Assembly (NCBI GenBank): GCA_030018135.1 | Contig: JASEGJ010000006.1 | Coordinates: 1-50,942, forward strand | Length of the DNA stretch: 50,942 nucleotides | Direction: 5' to 3' | Origin: Candidatus Hodarchaeaceae archaeon | Lineage (GTDB): Archaea > Hadarchaeota > Hadarchaeia > Hadarchaeales > Hadarchaeaceae | Part shown: one piece after another, positions 16,196 through 41,194 of the stretch | Numbering within the stretch: the stretch's first letter is position 1 | How the letters are laid out: the number at the start of each line of letters is the position of its first letter | Notes under the pieces: generated by a model | Database searches by the model: none | What the model was told of the DNA's origin: nothing | Seen by the model: the letters and a program-made list of their open reading frames with translations, nothing else | Program-made: the position numbers and the translations under genes

Positions 16196-16669
16196 GTGCC
16201 CTACGTGTTCTGCGATCCGGAGAAGTGCACTGGCTGTAGGGCCTGCGAGCTCGTCTGCTCGGGCTCCCACGAGAGGGTATTTGGCCCGGGCAGGGCTCGC
16301 ATCCGCGTCGTCCGGGAGGAGCCGGCCGTGGATATCGCGATCACTTGCCGCCAGTGCTCAAATCCGCCCTGCGCAAAGGTTTGCCCGGTCAACGCCATCC
16401 GCAAGCTGAGAACGGGGTTGGTCGAGGTCGATTCTGGGCGTTGTATAGGCTGTGCCCTCTGCGTGGAGGCGTGCCCATTCGGTGCAATTTCCCTGCTCGA
16501 TGGAAAAGCGATCAAGTGCGACCTCTGCGGGGGCAGCCCGGCCTGCGTGAAGCAATGCATGCCGGGAGCGCTGAGGTTCGTGGCTCCCGAGCGAATAGCG
16601 GCCGAAAAACGCTCGGCCTTTGTAATGGCCGCGCGCCCCAAGCCGATCGCGGGAGGTTGGAAGGCATGA
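16196..16669 (+). CDS. 4Fe-4S ferredoxin-type subunit, AOR-associated
   Basis: Several CxxCxxC clusters: CTGCRACELVC, CRQCSNPPCAKVCP, CIGCALCVEACP, CDLCGGSPACVKQC; overlaps the AOR start. Confidence 0.9.
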   Translation: MPYVFCDPEKCTGCRACELVCSGSHERVFGPGRARIRVVREEPAVDIAITCRQCSNPPCAKVCPVNAIRKLRTGLVEVDSGRCIGCALCVEACPFGAISLLDGKAIKCDLCGGSPACVKQCMPGALRFVAPERIAAEKRSAFVMAARPKPIAGGWKA

Positions 16670-18594
16670 CGTTCGCCTACAAGGGCTACACCGGAAAATA
16701 TCTTCGCGTCGACCTCTCCCGCGGCAAGGTGGTCGAGCTACCGCTCAAGAAGGAGTGGGCGCGCAACTACATAGGCGGCAGCGGGATGGCCGCGCGCATC
16801 CTGTACGACGAGGTGCCCCCGGAGGTCGAGCCCCTATCGCCGAGGAACCTTCTGATCTTCGCGACCGGCCCGGTGACCGGAACCGTTTACCCTCCGTCCG
16901 GGCGGTACTGCGTGGTCACGAGGGCCCCGCTCACGGGCATCTGGGGGGAGGCGCACTCGGGCGGTTACTTCGGCCCTGAGCTCAAGTACGCCGGCTACGA
17001 CCTCGTCGTGCTCCAGGGGAGGTCGGTCAAGCCAGTTTACCTCGCGATCGACGACGGGAGGGCCGAGCTGCGCAGCGCCGGAAAGCTCTGGGGGAAGAAC
17101 ACTGCGGAAACCACGGACATTCTCGAGGAGGAGTTCGGTGACCCTCAGGTGAGGGTTGCCTGCATCGGCCCGGCTGGCGAGCGCCTGGTAAAGTTCGCGT
17201 GCATAATGAACGAGCACTCCCGCGCGGCCGGGCGAACGGGCGTGGGCGCGGTGATGGGCTCCAAGAACTTGAAGGCGGCGGCGGTGAGGGGGAGCAAGGC
17301 CGTCGAGGTCGCCGATTTCGACCGCGTTTGGGAGCTGACGGAGGAGGCCCACGAGAGGTACACTGGTGGCGAGTGGGGCAAGGCCTTACACGACGCGCTC
17401 TACCGCTACGGCACGCCGGGGCTGGTGAGCTGGGAGAACGAGATAGGCAGGCTGCCGACGAAGGGGCACTACACAGGCGTCTTCGAGTACGCCGAAGATA
17501 TAGGTCCGGATCGATTTGAGCGCGAGTTCATAGTCCACCGCCGCTCCTGCATGAACTGCCGCATGCAGTGCAAGAAGGTGAGCTACGTGCGCTCCGGTCC
17601 CTACGCCGGCACCCTGAGCGAGGGGCCGGAGTACGAGACCATCGTCGCCCTGGGCTCCAATTGCCTGGTCCGCGACTTCCCCGCGATAATGCGGGCCAAC
17701 CAGCTCTGCAATTTGTACGGCATGGATACCATAAGTTGCGGAGGAGCGGTGAGCTTCGCCATGGAGTGCTTCGAGCGAGGCGCTTTAACCGAGCGGGAGC
17801 TGGGCATGCCGCTGAGGTGGGGCGACGGCGATGCCATGGTCAATCTCGTCGAACTGATCGCCTCGCGCGAGGGGATAGGCGACCTGCTGGCGGAGGGCGT
17901 TCGGGCCGCGGCGAAGCGCATAGGCAAGGGCTCCGAGCGGTGGGCGATCCACGTCAAGGGCTTGGAGGTTTCAGGACAAGACGGTAGGTCCCATCAATCG
18001 GTTGGACTGACGCACGCCATCTCCGTAATCGGCGGGGCTCACCTCAGGGCGCTTTCGTCGCTGGATGAGCTCGACTACAGGAAGACGATAATCGAGCGAT
18101 ACGGCAAGGCTAGGGCCAAGGAGCTGGGCGATAGGCTCTCGACGAAGTACAAGGGCATGCTGGTCAAGGATGTGGAGGACCTCTACGCTATCGTCGACGC
18201 GCTAATCACATGCAAGTATGGCACGATGTGGCCGCCAGCTTTCTACTTCGACGATTATGCCAAGCTGCTGCCCGCCGTCACAGGCATCGAGGAGTTCGCG
18301 AGCGTCGGGGAGGTCCGAGCCGCCGCCGAGCGGATGGTGAACTTGAAGCGGGCGTTCAACGTCAGGCTCGGCTTGGATCGCAGGGACGACGCGCTGCCGG
18401 AGCGCTTCCTCAAGGAGCAAATGCCCGACGGGCCTGCGAAGGGCAAGGTCGTGGACCTAAAGCCGATGCTCGACGAGTACTACCGCGAACGCGGATGGGA
18501 CGTTCGCACTGGACTGCAACGTCGGGCCACGTTGCAAAAATTTGGGCTGGATGATGTGGCAAGAGATTTAGCGAAGCGCGGGAAACTCAGGTAG
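16666..18594 (+). CDS. Aldehyde:ferredoxin oxidoreductase family tungstoenzyme (copy 1)
   Basis: Start MTFAYKGYTGKYLRVDLSRGKV; GGYFGPELKYAGYDLVVLQG; CMNCRMQC; longer ORF 16345 start rejected because it runs through the ferredoxin gene. Confidence 0.93.
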   Translation: MTFAYKGYTGKYLRVDLSRGKVVELPLKKEWARNYIGGSGMAARILYDEVPPEVEPLSPRNLLIFATGPVTGTVYPPSGRYCVVTRAPLTGIWGEAHSGGYFGPELKYAGYDLVVLQGRSVKPVYLAIDDGRAELRSAGKLWGKNTAETTDILEEEFGDPQVRVACIGPAGERLVKFACIMNEHSRAAGRTGVGAVMGSKNLKAAAVRGSKAVEVADFDRVWELTEEAHERYTGGEWGKALHDALYRYGTPGLVSWENEIGRLPTKGHYTGVFEYAEDIGPDRFEREFIVHRRSCMNCRMQCKKVSYVRSGPYAGTLSEGPEYETIVALGSNCLVRDFPAIMRANQLCNLYGMDTISCGGAVSFAMECFERGALTERELGMPLRWGDGDAMVNLVELIASREGIGDLLAEGVRAAAKRIGKGSERWAIHVKGLEVSGQDGRSHQSVGLTHAISVIGGAHLRALSSLDELDYRKTIIERYGKARAKELGDRLSTKYKGMLVKDVEDLYAIVDALITCKYGTMWPPAFYFDDYAKLLPAVTGIEEFASVGEVRAAAERMVNLKRAFNVRLGLDRRDDALPERFLKEQMPDGPAKGKVVDLKPMLDEYYRERGWDVRTGLQRRATLQKFGLDDVARDLAKRGKLR

Positions 18595-21927: not shown

Positions 21928-22091
21928 TGGGGCCGCCAGGATTTGAATTCCCGGGGGCTAAGCCCTTCTTAACCCCTCCCGGGTTTGCGGGTCTCTCCGG
22001 AGCACCGCTCCAACGGATCATCATCTTGCCATCAGCAGACCCACAACATCCGCTGGAGCCCGCCGTGCTAGCCAAGCTACACTACGGCCCC
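21928..22091 (-). tRNA. tRNA-Trp(CCA) with two introns (21993-22052 at 37/38; 21948-21977 in T arm)
   Basis: Acceptor GGGGCCG/CGGCCCC, anticodon stem GCGGG/CCCGC with loop CTCCAGA after splicing, T stem CCGGG/CCTGG, T loop TTCAAAT; mature length 74 nt; CCA encoded. Confidence 0.85.
21993..22052 (-). ncRNA. Putative box C/D methylation guide within tRNA-Trp intron 1
   Basis: CUGA (D') and AUGAUGA (C') boxes; GGGTCTG before CUGA complements CAGACCC of the same tRNA; TTGGAGC complements the GCTCCA(G) anticodon segment. Confidence 0.65.
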
Positions 22092-22138: not shown

Positions 22139-22240
22139 AGCCGGGGAAGGGATTTTCAGGGCAGACCATTTGAACCCCTGTATAGCGGATGCCCGCCGAG
22201 CGGCTGCAGTCCGCCGCGTTAACCGCTCCGCCACCCCGGC
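22139..22240 (-). tRNA. tRNA-Cys(GCA) with two introns (22191-22203 at 37/38; 22153-22168 in T loop)
   Basis: Acceptor GCCGGGG/CCCCGGC, anticodon stem GCGGA/TCCGC, loop CTGCAGA after splicing, T stem AGGGG/CCCTT, loop TTCAAAT; mature length 73 nt; CCA encoded. Confidence 0.85.
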
Positions 22241-23390: not shown

Positions 23391-25283
23391 TCATTTCTCT
23401 AGTTTGTCGGCAACCCACCCGACATCCAGTTCTTCCAACTTTGCCTTTGTGGGCACGCCGGTTTCGTCCCAGCCCATCATCTGATAATACGCGGCGATGG
23501 CCTGCCCATATGCTTCCTTCGAGAGCTTCGTGCCCTTCAGCGCCCCGGCCTCGAGGGGTTGAAAGAACCGCTCTGGCAACCAGTCATCCCGCATGGTGAA
23601 ACCCTCCCTGACATTAAATGCTCGAGCCATGGTGGTAGCGCGCTCCCCGACCTTCATGAGTTCCCATACCGTCGTGTCCCAGCCCGTGACCGCATTCACC
23701 ATCTCCGCCACCTGGGGTATTTTCCACACCCTCGCGGGAGCGGTGGTGAACAGACATATGTCGAGGCAATTGCCCAAGCTCCACCAGTGTTGAAGGTAGG
23801 TAAACAGTCTGACCTTTCGCGGGCCCAGGTCGAGGCTCTTCACCGGCTCCAAGATGCCTATCGGCTTGAGCTGGTCGATGAAGAAGCCCTCCTCCTCGAA
23901 GCACGGGTCGTGCTCCATCTGGACGTGGTCGGCTCCGGTGGGCGAAACGGCATACCCAAGCCCCACGCCCGTCTTCCATCTGCCCTCGTGCATCGGTATT
24001 TCCTTGCCCTTGACGTGCATCGCAAACCTCTCGGCTCCCCCGCCGATTCTCTCGGCGGCCCATTTGACGCCCTCAGCCAGGACGTCGCCCAGCCCCTCCC
24101 GCTTGGCGATCATTTCCGTAACCTTTACTAGGGCATCGCCATTACCAAATCTGAGGTCGATTCTCCCGGTGTCCTTTTCCGTTAGGATGCCGTTTTCGAA
24201 GCACTCCATCGCGAAGGCGATCGATACCCCCGTCGAAATCGAGTCCATTCCGTATGCATTGCAGATCTCGTTGGCCTTCACCACAGCCTTCAAATCAGTG
24301 ACGCCGCAGCACGAGCCAAGCGAGGCGACCCCCTCGTACTCGGGAGCCCCGTAGGCGGGGTCGACCTTGAAGGGCTCATCCACCTTGACAGTCATCTTGC
24401 ACGCGACCGAGCACGCATAGCATGCCGTCTGCCCGACGTGCAGTGTCTCCTTCATCCTTTCCCCGCTTATCCCCTCGGCACCCTCGATGGCGCCGTCGCG
24501 GAAGTTCCTAGTCGGGAGGGCTCCTGAAGCGTTGAGCGGGAGGACGAACTGTGGGGTTCCCAGGCTATGGAGCCCTGAGACATCGGCGTTCTTCAGGTAG
24601 TTTTCGTTGAACCACTTCGCGAGGGCCCTCACCTTGTCCGGCTCCTTTATATCGATCCTCTTCGTCCCCCTCACCGCTATCGCCTTGAGGTTTTTCGACC
24701 CCATGACCGCGCCCATCCCCCCGCGGCCGTTGGCGTGCCTCAGCTCGTTGATGACGCAGCCGTATCGGACGAGTTTTTCGCCGGCCGGGCCTATCTGGGC
24801 AATCCTTATCCTGTTGTCCCCGAGCTCCTCGCGGATGCCCTCCTGGGCCTCTTTCGTCGGTTTTCCCCAGATTTTGCCGGCGTCGCGGATCTCAACTTCG
24901 CCGTCGTGGATCCAAAGGTAGACCGGCTTTTTCGCCTTCCCCTTGATGATCACCGCGTCGTAGCCGGCGAACTTCAGCTCAGGCCCCCAGTGTCCCCCCG
25001 CCTCAGCCTCGCCGTATGTGCCAGTCAGGGGCGACTTGGCGGCAACCGAGAACCTGGAGGTGCCCTGCAGGGGGGCTCCCGTGAGGACGCTCGTCGCGAA
25101 AATTAACAAGTTGTCGGGTCCTAGGGGGTCTGTACCTGGCTTGAGCTCTTTCAAGAGATAATAGAGGGCGAGGCCCCTACCTCCCACATATCTCCTGTAG
25201 AAGATCTCGTTCGACTCATCCACGGAGATTTCCTCCCCGGACAAATCAACTCGCAAAATCTTGCCGTTATATCCATATGCCAT
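23391..25283 (-). CDS. Aldehyde:ferredoxin oxidoreductase family tungstoenzyme (copy 2)
   Basis: MAYGYNGKILRVDLSGEEISV; GGHWGPELKFAGYDAVIIKG; CYACSVACKM. Confidence 0.93.
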   Translation of the reverse strand: MAYGYNGKILRVDLSGEEISVDESNEIFYRRYVGGRGLALYYLLKELKPGTDPLGPDNLLIFATSVLTGAPLQGTSRFSVAAKSPLTGTYGEAEAGGHWGPELKFAGYDAVIIKGKAKKPVYLWIHDGEVEIRDAGKIWGKPTKEAQEGIREELGDNRIRIAQIGPAGEKLVRYGCVINELRHANGRGGMGAVMGSKNLKAIAVRGTKRIDIKEPDKVRALAKWFNENYLKNADVSGLHSLGTPQFVLPLNASGALPTRNFRDGAIEGAEGISGERMKETLHVGQTACYACSVACKMTVKVDEPFKVDPAYGAPEYEGVASLGSCCGVTDLKAVVKANEICNAYGMDSISTGVSIAFAMECFENGILTEKDTGRIDLRFGNGDALVKVTEMIAKREGLGDVLAEGVKWAAERIGGGAERFAMHVKGKEIPMHEGRWKTGVGLGYAVSPTGADHVQMEHDPCFEEEGFFIDQLKPIGILEPVKSLDLGPRKVRLFTYLQHWWSLGNCLDICLFTTAPARVWKIPQVAEMVNAVTGWDTTVWELMKVGERATTMARAFNVREGFTMRDDWLPERFFQPLEAGALKGTKLSKEAYGQAIAAYYQMMGWDETGVPTKAKLEELDVGWVADKLEK

Positions 25284-25287
25284 TTTT

Positions 25288-26223
25288 TCACCCCACCGGT
25301 CCCCTCTCGGGTTTGCTCGCCATAAATTCCTCAGCCTCCTTCCACCGCGGCATCGACTGCGCCCCAACCTTGGTCACGGAGAGGGCCGCGACCGCTGATG
25401 CGAAGTCGGCGGCCTCCAATGGGGCCATCCCCTTATAGATGCAACTTACGAATGCCGAGTTGAAGGCGTCGCCCGCGCCCGTCGTGTCCACCACGTTTTC
25501 GACCTTGTAAATGGGTATGCGATGTTCCCCCTCGGCCGTCACGAGTAGGGACCCGCCCTCGCCTAGGGTTATCAGGACTATCTCGGGGCCAAGGCCGAGG
25601 AGCTTTCTCGCCGCCCTCCTGACATCGGTTTCCTTCGTGAGCTCGAGGGCCCCCCTGCGGTTCGGCAGGAGGATATCCGTCATCCCCAGCAGGTCCCTGA
25701 TCGCGTCTAGGCCGTACACGGCGACGTGCCTCTCCAGGTCGAATGAAACCCTCTTGCCCGCCTCCTTCGCTATCCGCATGCACTTCCTAGCCGACTCGAT
25801 GTTCACCGCATCCGTGTGGAAGATGTCGGCTCTGGCGACGTAATCGGCCATTATTTCGTTCGCCTTGAGCACGTTTTTTTCCATGTAGGGGTCCTGAAGG
25901 ATCTGGCGGCCTCCGTGGGAATCCACGACGATGATGTTGACTGGGGTTTTAGTTTCCTTTTTCAAAAAGAAGTGCTCAACATCCATGTCGTGATTTTTGA
26001 AGTTCTGAAGTATCTCGTGGCCATTTGGGTCGTCGCCGGCCGAGCCCATGAAGCCGGACTTCACGCCCATCCGCGCCACCCCAACGCAGAAATTTGCCAC
26101 GACGCCGCCGCACTGCCTCGCGAAATCCTTTATCCAAATTTTGTCGTCGGGCCTACAGAACTCCTCGACGAGGACGAATTCATCTATCGAACTTACGCCC
26201 AAGCCTACGATTTTCGCGGCCAT
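25288..26223 (-). CDS. PfkB-family carbohydrate kinase
   Basis: GGVVANFCVGVARMG ... VVDTTGAGDAFNSAFVSCI. Confidence 0.92.
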   Translation of the reverse strand: MAAKIVGLGVSSIDEFVLVEEFCRPDDKIWIKDFARQCGGVVANFCVGVARMGVKSGFMGSAGDDPNGHEILQNFKNHDMDVEHFFLKKETKTPVNIIVVDSHGGRQILQDPYMEKNVLKANEIMADYVARADIFHTDAVNIESARKCMRIAKEAGKRVSFDLERHVAVYGLDAIRDLLGMTDILLPNRRGALELTKETDVRRAARKLLGLGPEIVLITLGEGGSLLVTAEGEHRIPIYKVENVVDTTGAGDAFNSAFVSCIYKGMAPLEAADFASAVAALSVTKVGAQSMPRWKEAEEFMASKPERGPVG

Positions 26224-30844: not shown

Positions 30845-32626
30845 CTAAAATTCAAGCAAGCCCAATTGCCTCAGCTTTTCCTCGGTCGGCACACCGCTGG
30901 AGTCCCAGCCCCTAGAGGCGTAGTAGCTCGGCAGCATGCTCGCTACCATGGACCTGCGCCCCCTGGATGGGCCCTCGGGCATGGGCTCCTCCGCCAGCCG
31001 CTTGGGCAGCACATCGTCCTTCGCCCCGAGGCCCTCGCGGATGTTGTACAGTCGCTCCAAGTTCCATATTCGCTCGCCCACGGTCATGATATCCTCGTCG
31101 GTGAACTCGATGCCGGTCGCGGCCGTAAGCAACTTCGCGTACTGCACGGCCCCAAGCGCGAAGGTCGTGAACCTGCAGAGCACGAGCGAGTCGACGGCCG
31201 CTGATAGGTCCTGAAGTATTATCGTCATCTCCGCCTTGTCGCTGGCCGAGAAGCGCTCCATCAACTTCGGCGCGCCGAGTATTTCGGGCGCGATCATGTA
31301 CGCTCGAAGGTGACAGCCCCCTCTATTGCTCGTGGCGTACGCCAAACCCTGTCCCTGGGCGCCCCTCGGGTCGTAAGCTGGCAGCTCCAAGCCCTTGACG
31401 GACATGGAAAGCTCTGGGAGCCCGCGCCCCCCCGCGAGCCTAGCTGACCCCTCCGCCAGCTCATCGCCGATCCCCTCGCGCACCCCAGTAGCCCTCGTCA
31501 GATCCACGATTGCCCTGGCATCGCCGAATTTAGGTCCGTCCAGCTTCCCCCTCTCGCCCAGCTCCATCGCGCAGCCTATGGTGCTGCCCATCGAGATCGT
31601 GTCCAATCCGAGGTCGTTGCACAGGAGGTTTGCCTCGGCTATGGCGGCGAGGTCATCGACGCCGCACTGCGCGCCGAATGCCCAGATCGTCCCGTACTCT
31701 GGCCCCTCCCCCTCGACATCTCCGACCTTCGTCACCCTGCCGCAGGCGATCGGGCACCCGAAGCATCCCCTATTTCTCACCAAGGTGGTCTCGGCTATCG
31801 TCTCGCCGCTCGTCTTGTCCGCCGTCGGAAAAACACCCGCCCGGAAGTTGCGCGTCGGGTAGATGCCGTGCTCGTTGATTATGTTCACAAGCACGGCGGT
31901 GCCGCAGGTGGGCAGGGCTGTGCCGGTGATGGGGTCCTCCCTCAGCAGCTTTTGGCACTCCCTCACGCAAACGTCGAACGATCCCTCGTCGGCTATCTTT
32001 GGTCGACCGCTGCCCCGGACGGCTATCGCCTTCAAGAGCTTGCTGCCCATCACAGCGCCGACGCCGCCTCGACCAGCGGCTCGATGCTTGTCGTTGACGA
32101 TGGCCGCGATCCTGACGAGCCTTTCCCCCGCGGGGCCTATGCACGCCACCCTAGCCCTGCTGTTGCCCACCTGCCTGCAGATGGCATCCGTGGTGGCGTG
32201 CGTCCCCATGCCCCAAATGTCCGAGGCATCCCTCAGCTCGGCCTCCCCATCGTGCACCCATAGGTAAACCGGCTCCCTCGCCTGTCCCTTGATCACGATG
32301 GCATCCACGCCCGCGAATTTGAGTTCCGCCCCCCAATTGCCTCCTGAGTTTGCATCGAATATCGTGCCCGTCAAGGGCGATTTGGTCACCACGCAATGGC
32401 GCCCGGAGGTCGGTGCCAAGGTGCCGGTCAGCGGCCCCGTCGCGAACACCAATAAGTTATCCGGATCGAATGGCCCTACATCGTGCCTGACCCTATCGTA
32501 GAGAAGCCTCACCCCGAGCCCACGGCCCCCTATCAGATCTCGCGCGAGTTCCTCGTCCAGCCCCACCTCTGTTATCCTCTCCCCAGACAAGTCGACCTCC
32601 AAGATCTTGCCGGCCCAGCCGTACAT
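30845..32626 (-). CDS. Aldehyde:ferredoxin oxidoreductase family tungstoenzyme (copy 3)
   Basis: MYGWAGKILEVDLSGERITEV; GGNWGAELKFAGVDAIVIKG; CFGCPIACGR. Confidence 0.93.
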   Translation of the reverse strand: MYGWAGKILEVDLSGERITEVGLDEELARDLIGGRGLGVRLLYDRVRHDVGPFDPDNLLVFATGPLTGTLAPTSGRHCVVTKSPLTGTIFDANSGGNWGAELKFAGVDAIVIKGQAREPVYLWVHDGEAELRDASDIWGMGTHATTDAICRQVGNSRARVACIGPAGERLVRIAAIVNDKHRAAGRGGVGAVMGSKLLKAIAVRGSGRPKIADEGSFDVCVRECQKLLREDPITGTALPTCGTAVLVNIINEHGIYPTRNFRAGVFPTADKTSGETIAETTLVRNRGCFGCPIACGRVTKVGDVEGEGPEYGTIWAFGAQCGVDDLAAIAEANLLCNDLGLDTISMGSTIGCAMELGERGKLDGPKFGDARAIVDLTRATGVREGIGDELAEGSARLAGGRGLPELSMSVKGLELPAYDPRGAQGQGLAYATSNRGGCHLRAYMIAPEILGAPKLMERFSASDKAEMTIILQDLSAAVDSLVLCRFTTFALGAVQYAKLLTAATGIEFTDEDIMTVGERIWNLERLYNIREGLGAKDDVLPKRLAEEPMPEGPSRGRRSMVASMLPSYYASRGWDSSGVPTEEKLRQLGLLEF

Positions 32627-32637
32627 CTCCGCTCGCC

Positions 32638-33516
32638 TCAGATGAGGCCCGCTTTCTTCATTCCCTTTCGCAGCAATACCCGCTCCACGCCCGTGAGGGG
32701 TCCGAGGGGCATGCGGGTCCGCCCGCTCGGCCTGCCCATGAGCGTTTGGACGAGCTTCTGCCCGTAGGGGTATGGCACCTTGCGGAGCTCGTTTTTCAGC
32801 CTGATCAAATTGAGCTGGATCTGCCTGCAGCGCCCGTAGTCCTTTTTGAGGAAGGAGTTGTACATCTCGAGCACCATCTGGGGCAGGCATGCTGCCAACG
32901 CGGCGATGCAGCCGGAGGCGCCAACGCAAAGCGCTGGGAAGATGAGCTCGTCGTCGCCGCACGCGAAGCTGATGCGGTCGCCCGCCCTCTCGATCAGCTC
33001 CTGAAAGTAGATCAAGTCGCCGCTCGTGTTCAGCCCGCGGATGTTCGGGTGGAAGGCCAGCACATCGACGAGGGTGGGGTCGAGCTTCACGCCCGTGTAT
33101 TCTGGCAGGTTGTTGATTATCACCGGGATGTCAATTGAGTCAGCCAATGTCTCGTAGTGCATTCGCAGGCCGCGCGGATGCTGGGGGAAGAACCAAGGCG
33201 TCAGCGCCATCGCCGCAGCCGCCCCAACGTCCTCGGCAAACCTAGCCAGCTCGACGGCATCCTTGGTTCTGGCGCAGCCGACCTCCGCGATCACGGGCAC
33301 CCCCTTCGACTCCTCGACGGTTATCCGGATCACGCGCTTCCTCTCCTCATCGCCCATCAGGGCCATCTCGCCCGGGGTCGAGCAAGCCACCAGCCCGTGG
33401 ACGCCGGCCTCGACGAGGTATTGGATGTCCTTGCGCAGGGCCTCCTCGTCGATGGACTCGTCCTCCTTAAACGGCGTCGTGAACGCCACGTTGACCCCCT
33501 TCAGCTCGAACGCCAA
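32638..33516 (-). CDS. DHDPS/NAL (DapA) superfamily protein with substituted catalytic residues
   Basis: VAFTTPFKEDESIDEEALRKDIQYLVEAGVHGLVACSTPGEMALM; INNLPEYTG; NIRGLNTSGD; TTG start at 33516 inferred. Confidence 0.85.
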   Translation of the reverse strand: MAFELKGVNVAFTTPFKEDESIDEEALRKDIQYLVEAGVHGLVACSTPGEMALMGDEERKRVIRITVEESKGVPVIAEVGCARTKDAVELARFAEDVGAAAAMALTPWFFPQHPRGLRMHYETLADSIDIPVIINNLPEYTGVKLDPTLVDVLAFHPNIRGLNTSGDLIYFQELIERAGDRISFACGDDELIFPALCVGASGCIAALAACLPQMVLEMYNSFLKKDYGRCRQIQLNLIRLKNELRKVPYPYGQKLVQTLMGRPSGRTRMPLGPLTGVERVLLRKGMKKAGLI

Positions 33517-37828: not shown

Positions 37829-37922
37829 GGGCCCGTGGCTCAGCTTGGATGGAGCGTCCGGCTTCGGCCCTCGTTTAAGGGAAGAAACCGGAAGGTCGGG
37901 GGTTCGAATCCCTCCGGGCCCG
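37829..37922 (+). tRNA. tRNA-Arg(TCG) with 19-nt intron at 37/38 (37868-37886)
   Basis: GGGCCCG/CGGGCCC acceptor; loop CTTCGGA after removing CCCTCGTTTAAGGGAAGAA; BHB: CTTC/GAAG with 3-nt bulges GGC and AAA. Confidence 0.9.
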
Positions 37923-41119: not shown

Positions 41120-41194
41120 GGGCCGGTGGTCCAGCCAGGAGAGGATGCAGGCCTCCGGAGCCTGAGATCGCGGGTTCGAATCCCGCCCGGCCCG
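41120..41194 (+). tRNA. tRNA-Arg(CCG), no intron
   Basis: GGGCCGG/CCGGCCC acceptor; loop CTCCGGA; GCGGGTTCGAATCCCGC T arm. Confidence 0.93.

Follow-up and report, generated by a model that had tools for sequence, protein, structure and literature searches.

We propose that the tRNA-Cys gene of this Hadesarchaea (Hadarchaeota) genome carries two ordinary bulge-helix-bulge (BHB) introns, which would be cut by the splicing endonuclease EndA and their exons joined by the ligase RtcB, and that the intron in the T loop is a recent gain; we put the probability of this reading at about 0.9. The gene lies in a window of 50,942 nucleotides, by which we mean the whole stretch of DNA that was analysed. 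Scanning the window with a splice-aware finder returned four tRNAs only (Trp, Cys, Arg TCG and Arg CCG), which are listed here with their introns.

21929..22091, minus strand: tRNA-Trp(CCA), with encoded ACCA, 48 nt downstream of tRNA-Cys on the same strand
21948..21977, minus strand: intron of 30 nt in the T arm of tRNA-Trp, at 53/54; its central helix is CCCG/CGGG and its outer helix is weak
21993..22052, minus strand: 60-nt intron of tRNA-Trp at 37/38, with a box C/D-like guide (CTGA, GATGATGA)
22140..22240, minus strand: tRNA-Cys(GCA) gene, positions 1-72, with U73 at 22139 and encoded CCA at 22138-22136
22153..22168, minus strand: 16-nt intron of tRNA-Cys, TGGTCTGCCCTGAAAA, in the T loop at 59/60, complete BHB GGG-TTCA-AA^T..TGAA-AA^T-CCC
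22191..22203, minus strand: 13-nt intron of tRNA-Cys, CCGCTCGGCGGGC, at the canonical 37/38, BHB GGA-CTGC-AG^C..GCGG-GC^A-TCC
37829..37921, plus strand: tRNA-Arg(TCG), with a 19-nt intron at 37/38
41120..41193, plus strand: tRNA-Arg(CCG), intronless

Three aldehyde ferredoxin oxidoreductase-like genes also lie in the window (16345-18594, plus; 23391-25367, minus; 30845-32962, minus).

The tRNA-Cys gene is absent from ARAGORN output and from Rfam matches at the gathering score, and in its unspliced form it earns only 13.6 bits with the Rfam tRNA model. Our custom finder looks for acceptor-stem pairs, excises BHB motifs stepwise and scores the spliced cloverleaf. At the same threshold it returned zero tRNAs from three dinucleotide shuffles of the window. 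With both introns out, the gene gives a full tRNA-Cys cloverleaf (GCCGGGGTGGCGGAGCGGTTAACGCGGCGGACTGCAGATCCGCTATACAGGGGTTCAAATCCCTTCCCCGGC): the anticodon is GCA, the T loop has 7 nt, U73 is followed by an encoded CCA, and the T stem contains one G-U pair; the standard tRNA-Cys form expected of a gene with archaeal BHB introns is thus regained on excision. A chance hairpin or mis-drawn tRNA is ruled out by the shuffles and by the empty sites in relatives described below.

Both introns set out in the initial annotation were reproduced. The 13-nt intron at 37/38, with helix CTGC/GCGG and bulges AGC and GCA, recurs at 22203-22191, and the 16-nt intron at 59/60, with outer helix GGG/CCC, central helix TTCA/TGAA and two AAT bulges, falls exactly at 22168-22153. 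Each motif therefore has the 3-nt bulges around a 4-bp helix that define a BHB. The inner helix of the 59/60 motif has only two pairs (GG/CC). When the 16 intron letters were shuffled, a 4-bp central helix arose in 1.5% of cases, and in 0.19% it came together with two or more inner pairs. Judged by its motif, the T-loop intron of tRNA-Cys is a real and ordinary kind of archaeal BHB intron.

Relatives place this intron in time. The own EndA shares 71-80% identity with that of MAGs, almost all of them labelled Hadesarchaea and among them Candidatus Hadarchaeum yellowstonense, and the relatives make up one family of about ten genera and three further families. In seven of them tRNA-Cys is readable, and in all seven the T-loop intron is absent. 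The gene is intronless in G004, G007, G012, G013 and G022; in G002 it has a 37/38 intron only, differing in sequence from that of the present genome; and in G018 the T loop is uninterrupted and a 37/38 insert again differs in sequence. Cys-like matches in G001, G005 and G019 proved to hold no tRNA. Because it is missing from all seven readable relatives, the Cys T-loop intron is, on this comparison of genomes, a recent, lineage-specific gain.

Position 59/60 is far from private to this gene. Six tRNA genes of the genome have T-arm introns, at 59/60 in Cys, Tyr, Asn (with one mismatch in the central helix) and two Gln genes, and at 53/54 in Trp. In other genomes, 59/60 introns occur in His of G001 and G006, iMet of G027 and Thr of G008; for Asn of G005, the T-loop part that could be read matches as well. 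The two Gln genes, tRNA-Gln(TTG) and tRNA-Gln(CTG) (contig C1, 16573-16703 and 20805-20931, plus strand), hold three introns each, including one at 59/60, and seven relatives (G002, G005, G006, G010, G011, G016 and G017) have a Gln intron at the same position, with varying loop and inner helix. As the Gln intron extends across Hadarchaeota and the Cys intron is, among the genomes read, found only here, the T-loop introns are of mixed age, with old as well as recent ones. A split tRNA-Gln at C1:19172 had been considered as the source of Gln, and was ruled out by the two complete Gln genes on the same contig. The fragment itself (C1:19158-19200, plus strand) is a Gln-like 3′ half lying between the two genes, without the T-loop intron and with no 5′ half nearby, and is possibly an integration remnant.

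We extended the search to 297 archaeal genomes. The T-loop pattern by itself gave too much noise; with CCA added, control matches fell to a handful. The 59/60 pattern with encoded CCA matched in 47 genomes, whereas the controls gave about a dozen matches in total. Among 71 archaeal sequences, exon base 57 and its intron partner form A-U in 39, G-C in 23, G-U in six and A-C in three, a covariation with a Fisher p of 3e-10 over sequences that are not independent and a few of which are not tRNAs. This pairing of exon with intron is the best evidence, as far as sequence comparison goes, that the 59/60 motif is selected.

For the Cys gene we infer transcription, cleavage and ligation, an EndA tetramer and a route of intron gain that would run as follows. 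In the precursor, T-stem pairs 51-53/61-63 would serve as outer helix, and the central helix would form between UUCA, the conserved bases 54-57 of the T loop, and a UGAA close to the intron's 3′ end. Both 3-nt bulges would be AAU, with EndA, probably an alpha4 homotetramer from one gene, cutting after the second A on each side. The same enzyme would cut the sites of the 37/38 intron, which would leave likewise, the order of the two removals being free. RtcB would then presumably join the exons, and the 7-nt T loop would be regained. The likely ligase gene is present (contig C11, 68229-70859, minus strand) as two matched pieces about 1.4 kb apart, and the gap between them looks like an intein or other insert. 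As for the gain, a T arm would already give half the motif, and a short insert ending in YGAANN would suffice for the rest. The recurrence of 59/60 in different tRNAs and phyla would follow, because the near-universal T arm supplies that half. The gain in Cys would have happened in a genome tolerating many introns at many positions.

That genome (1.11 Mb, 45 contigs, 93% complete, a MAG) was annotated with introns in mind, a check proposed at the outset, and the count bears out six tRNA genes with T-arm introns within a large non-canonical load. Genes were gathered with the Rfam tRNA model, T-loop patterns and a 5′-half model, and the intron table was built with a custom splicer other than tRNAscan-SE. 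Introns are present in 30 of the 40 tRNA genes resolved and number 48 in total (42 in 38 genes, plus three in each of two Gln genes), a load of about 1.2 per tRNA gene; the Thermoproteales mean is 0.84 (PMC8450103). Only 15 are at 37/38, counting Ser(GGA), for which an alternative reading exists. The other 33 lie at 9/10, 15/16, in the D loop (where positions are uncertain by one or two bases), 21/22, 22/23, 23/24, 28/29, 30/31, 32/33, 33/34, 34/35, 35/36, 38/39, 53/54 and 59/60. A perfect central helix together with two or more outer pairs is seen in about 34 of the 48; the remainder, mostly in the D arm, keep central and inner helices and are missing a clear outer helix.

A single intron interrupts 17 genes, and nine more are interrupted twice; Tyr and both Gln genes make up the three-intron class, and tRNA-Phe, on the best reading, has four introns. 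The probable four introns of tRNA-Phe(GAA) (contig C10, 19634-19813, plus strand) are in the D loop (33 nt) and at 22/23 (22 nt), 30/31 (30 nt) and 37/38 (22 nt); central helices are perfect in the two D-arm introns and the 30/31 intron, and the 37/38 motif has one mismatch. Some motifs in Tyr, Pro(TGG) and Phe are complete only once another intron is gone, so that ordered removal would be needed, as tRNAscan-SE 2.0 describes for known archaeal tRNAs (PMC8450103). Strict single-pass splicing read Tyr as GTT and Pro TGG as TAA, and missed Gln; ordered excision corrected all of these. Simple tRNA annotation misses or misnames many such intron-bearing genes.

In the 93%-complete assembly we did not find His, Ala(TGC), Val(TAC), Pro(CGG) or initiator Met. 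The 5′ half of Leu(CAA) (contig C24, 235-270, minus strand) enters an N stretch, the gene being lost to an assembly gap, and two candidates of the 5′-half model (C11:56570 and C7:8149) gave no tRNA. A copy of a tRNA-Gly 3′ end (contig C16, 7026-7070, minus strand), about 1.1 kb from tRNA-Gly(GCC), is possibly an attachment-site remnant.

The neighbouring tRNA-Trp had been credited with a T-arm intron of its own. It does have two introns, one of them in the T arm, but its site at 53/54 is the end of the T stem, outside the loop, and a good outer helix is missing. In G007, tRNA-Trp carries a 37/38 intron of the same kind and no T-arm intron, its exon running unchanged through the 53/54 junction. 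The box C/D-like elements of the 37/38 intron are conserved there. In the present gene, GGGTCTG beside CTGA pairs with positions 35-41 of the spliced tRNA, and by the D'+5 rule the predicted target of the guide is C39. This intron matches Rfam sR3 (RF01133) weakly, with an E of 0.011, below the gathering score. A 45-nt intron of tRNA-Met(CAT) (contig C11, 112085-112203, minus strand) likewise has CTGA and ATGATG boxes; its TGAGT pairs with ACTCA, by eye, and would point at C34 of the same tRNA.

From the adjacency of the two T-arm introns the initial annotation had drawn active spread. The Cys and Trp introns share neither position nor length nor sequence, and do not sustain that step. What does stand is a genome rich in non-canonical introns (33 of 48); the Gln 59/60 intron is old and common to several genera, and the burden is therefore partly inherited. 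We consider it rather unlikely that introns are being actively transposed between tRNA genes, by reverse splicing and recombination, and served by a broad-specificity endonuclease. Intron transposition has been reported in Thermoproteales (PMC4033280), and the Cys intron, TGGTCTGCCCTGAAAA, is similar to that of His in G001, TGGCGATGCCTGAAAA, but the motif forces most of that likeness. A nearly identical 15/16 intron in the two Gln genes would fit a transposition, but the pair may simply be paralogous genes. The 33 non-canonical introns, with some D-arm introns lacking an outer helix, point the same way; against this, the Cys and Trp T-arm introns are unrelated, and the endonuclease, encoded by one alpha gene, lacks the crenarchaeal insertion and has a loop motif similar to that in the intron-poor relative G007.

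The endonuclease bears on both readings. Profiles PF01974 and PF02778 each find one EndA gene, on contig C33, of 179 aa with both domains. It has the catalytic Tyr, His and Lys motifs, and being the product of one catalytic gene, about 180 aa long and built of an N and a C domain, it is of alpha type. The solved chains closest to it are the EndA of M. kandleri, ARMAN-2 and M. jannaschii. In alignment it lacks the crenarchaeal insertion of nine residues; a conserved loop, GKPLSGG(K/R)LQL, shared also with G012, brings lysines near the place of the crenarchaeal loop, and the corresponding loop of G007 is similar (GKLLGDGK). A profile search found neither a second subunit gene nor a three-unit fusion. 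On these features the enzyme is a probable alpha4 homotetramer. Typing of the subunits had been suggested with a broad-specificity enzyme in mind. The outcome, one alpha-type gene without the insertion, does not support such an enzyme, and the Cys intron needs no broad specificity because its motif is a strict, full BHB; the D-arm introns without an outer helix might.

It is quite unlikely that a divergent beta subunit exists and makes the enzyme an (alpha-beta)2 form of broad specificity. The genome is 93% complete, and the closest solved relative by sequence, EndA of Methanopyrus kandleri, is described as (alpha-beta)2; yet the profile detects two strong EndA genes in other archaea such as G030, G036 and G037 and only one in every matched Hadarchaeota genome, and the N-domain profile likewise finds a single gene here.

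Folded in isolation, the T-arm segment of tRNA-Cys has a minimum fold that is not a BHB and a stability no better than that of shuffles (z -0.19); its counterpart in Tyr is much stabler than shuffles (z -3.26), as is that in iMet of G027. This weakness, and the origin of the contig in a MAG, are what might favour a pseudogene whose 16-nt insert is neutral or assembly-made and never spliced, a reading that is highly improbable given that the insert sits frame-perfect in the gene and forms a full BHB, that motif-perfect introns occupy 59/60 elsewhere among the tRNAs of this genome and those of its relatives, and that this is the only tRNA-Cys found, with GCA, U73 and encoded CCA all intact. Another intact tRNA-Cys, which the initial annotation had named as telling against the introns, was sought across the 93%-complete MAG, and no second GCA tRNA was found.

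Having returned to a Cys gene with two ordinary BHB introns, we can set it beside known systems. BHB introns in the T arm are already known in Archaea (PMC12397907), and the T-loop intron itself is ordinary for the domain. Position 59/60 is also the joint of permuted tRNAs with a BHB in Thermofilum pendens and Cyanidioschyzon merolae (PMC3218864); the splice position is the same, but Cys here has an ordinary intron between adjacent exons. Short BHB introns at many tRNA positions, several per gene, are known from the Thermoproteales Pyrobaculum and Thermofilum (PMC8450103, PMC3218864). The present genome resembles them in its short non-canonical BHB introns, in having several per gene and in motifs that form after another intron leaves. 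Their enzyme, however, is (alpha-beta)2 with the crenarchaeal loop, whereas that of the Hadarchaeota studied here is apparently a single-alpha EndA. The apparent four introns of tRNA-Phe exceed the maximum of three stated previously (PMC8450103, PMC4033280). Among Asgard archaea, Atabeyarchaeia and Freyarchaeia have 92-95% of their tRNA genes interrupted (PMC11291895). They too are intron-rich outside Thermoproteales, often at non-canonical positions and with several introns per gene, but belong to a different phylum and exceed the 30 of 40 interrupted here.

Reviews associate a large number of non-canonical tRNA introns with endonucleases that have additional subunits or loops (PMC4033280, PMC6379350, PMC12397907), connect many of them with CSL or ASL enzymes (PMC12397907, PMC4033280), and class alpha4 EndA as narrow (PMC6379350). 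The broad-specificity types are (alpha-beta)2 with the crenarchaea-specific loop (CSL) and epsilon2 with the ARMAN-specific loop (ASL), each loop having its own lysine. The own EndA resembles the alpha4 enzyme of M. jannaschii in its single gene, its N and C domains, with both families over the cut-off, its catalytic Tyr/His/Lys motifs and an acidic DDEGD near the C-terminus (DADGD in M. jannaschii); it differs in the conserved loop GKPLSGG(K/R), one residue longer. It would also serve far more non-canonical introns than a narrow enzyme of the M. jannaschii type would be expected to. We found no paper on Hadarchaeota tRNA introns in the literature searched, a scope that left out subscription papers and tRNA databases. 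As far as that search goes, the intron load together with a single-alpha EndA, and the probable four-intron tRNA, are new; we do not claim priority.

We tentatively suggest, at slightly less than even odds, that Hadarchaeota depart from the link reported between endonuclease architecture and intron diversity. A plain alpha4 EndA with neither second subunit nor specificity loop would handle, within a single genome, about 33 non-canonical introns one ordered step after another, among them motifs that lack an outer helix and those of the four-intron Phe. If true, positional diversity would need only more BHB copies, and a relaxed enzyme would be unnecessary. G007 is intron-poor, with about 47 tRNAs, mostly of uninterrupted length, and in the same family the present genome, G001 and G008 are intron-rich; all have one alpha-type EndA gene, so that enzyme type alone does not set intron load. 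With heavy, scattered introns beside a probable homotetrameric endonuclease, this genome is a useful test case.
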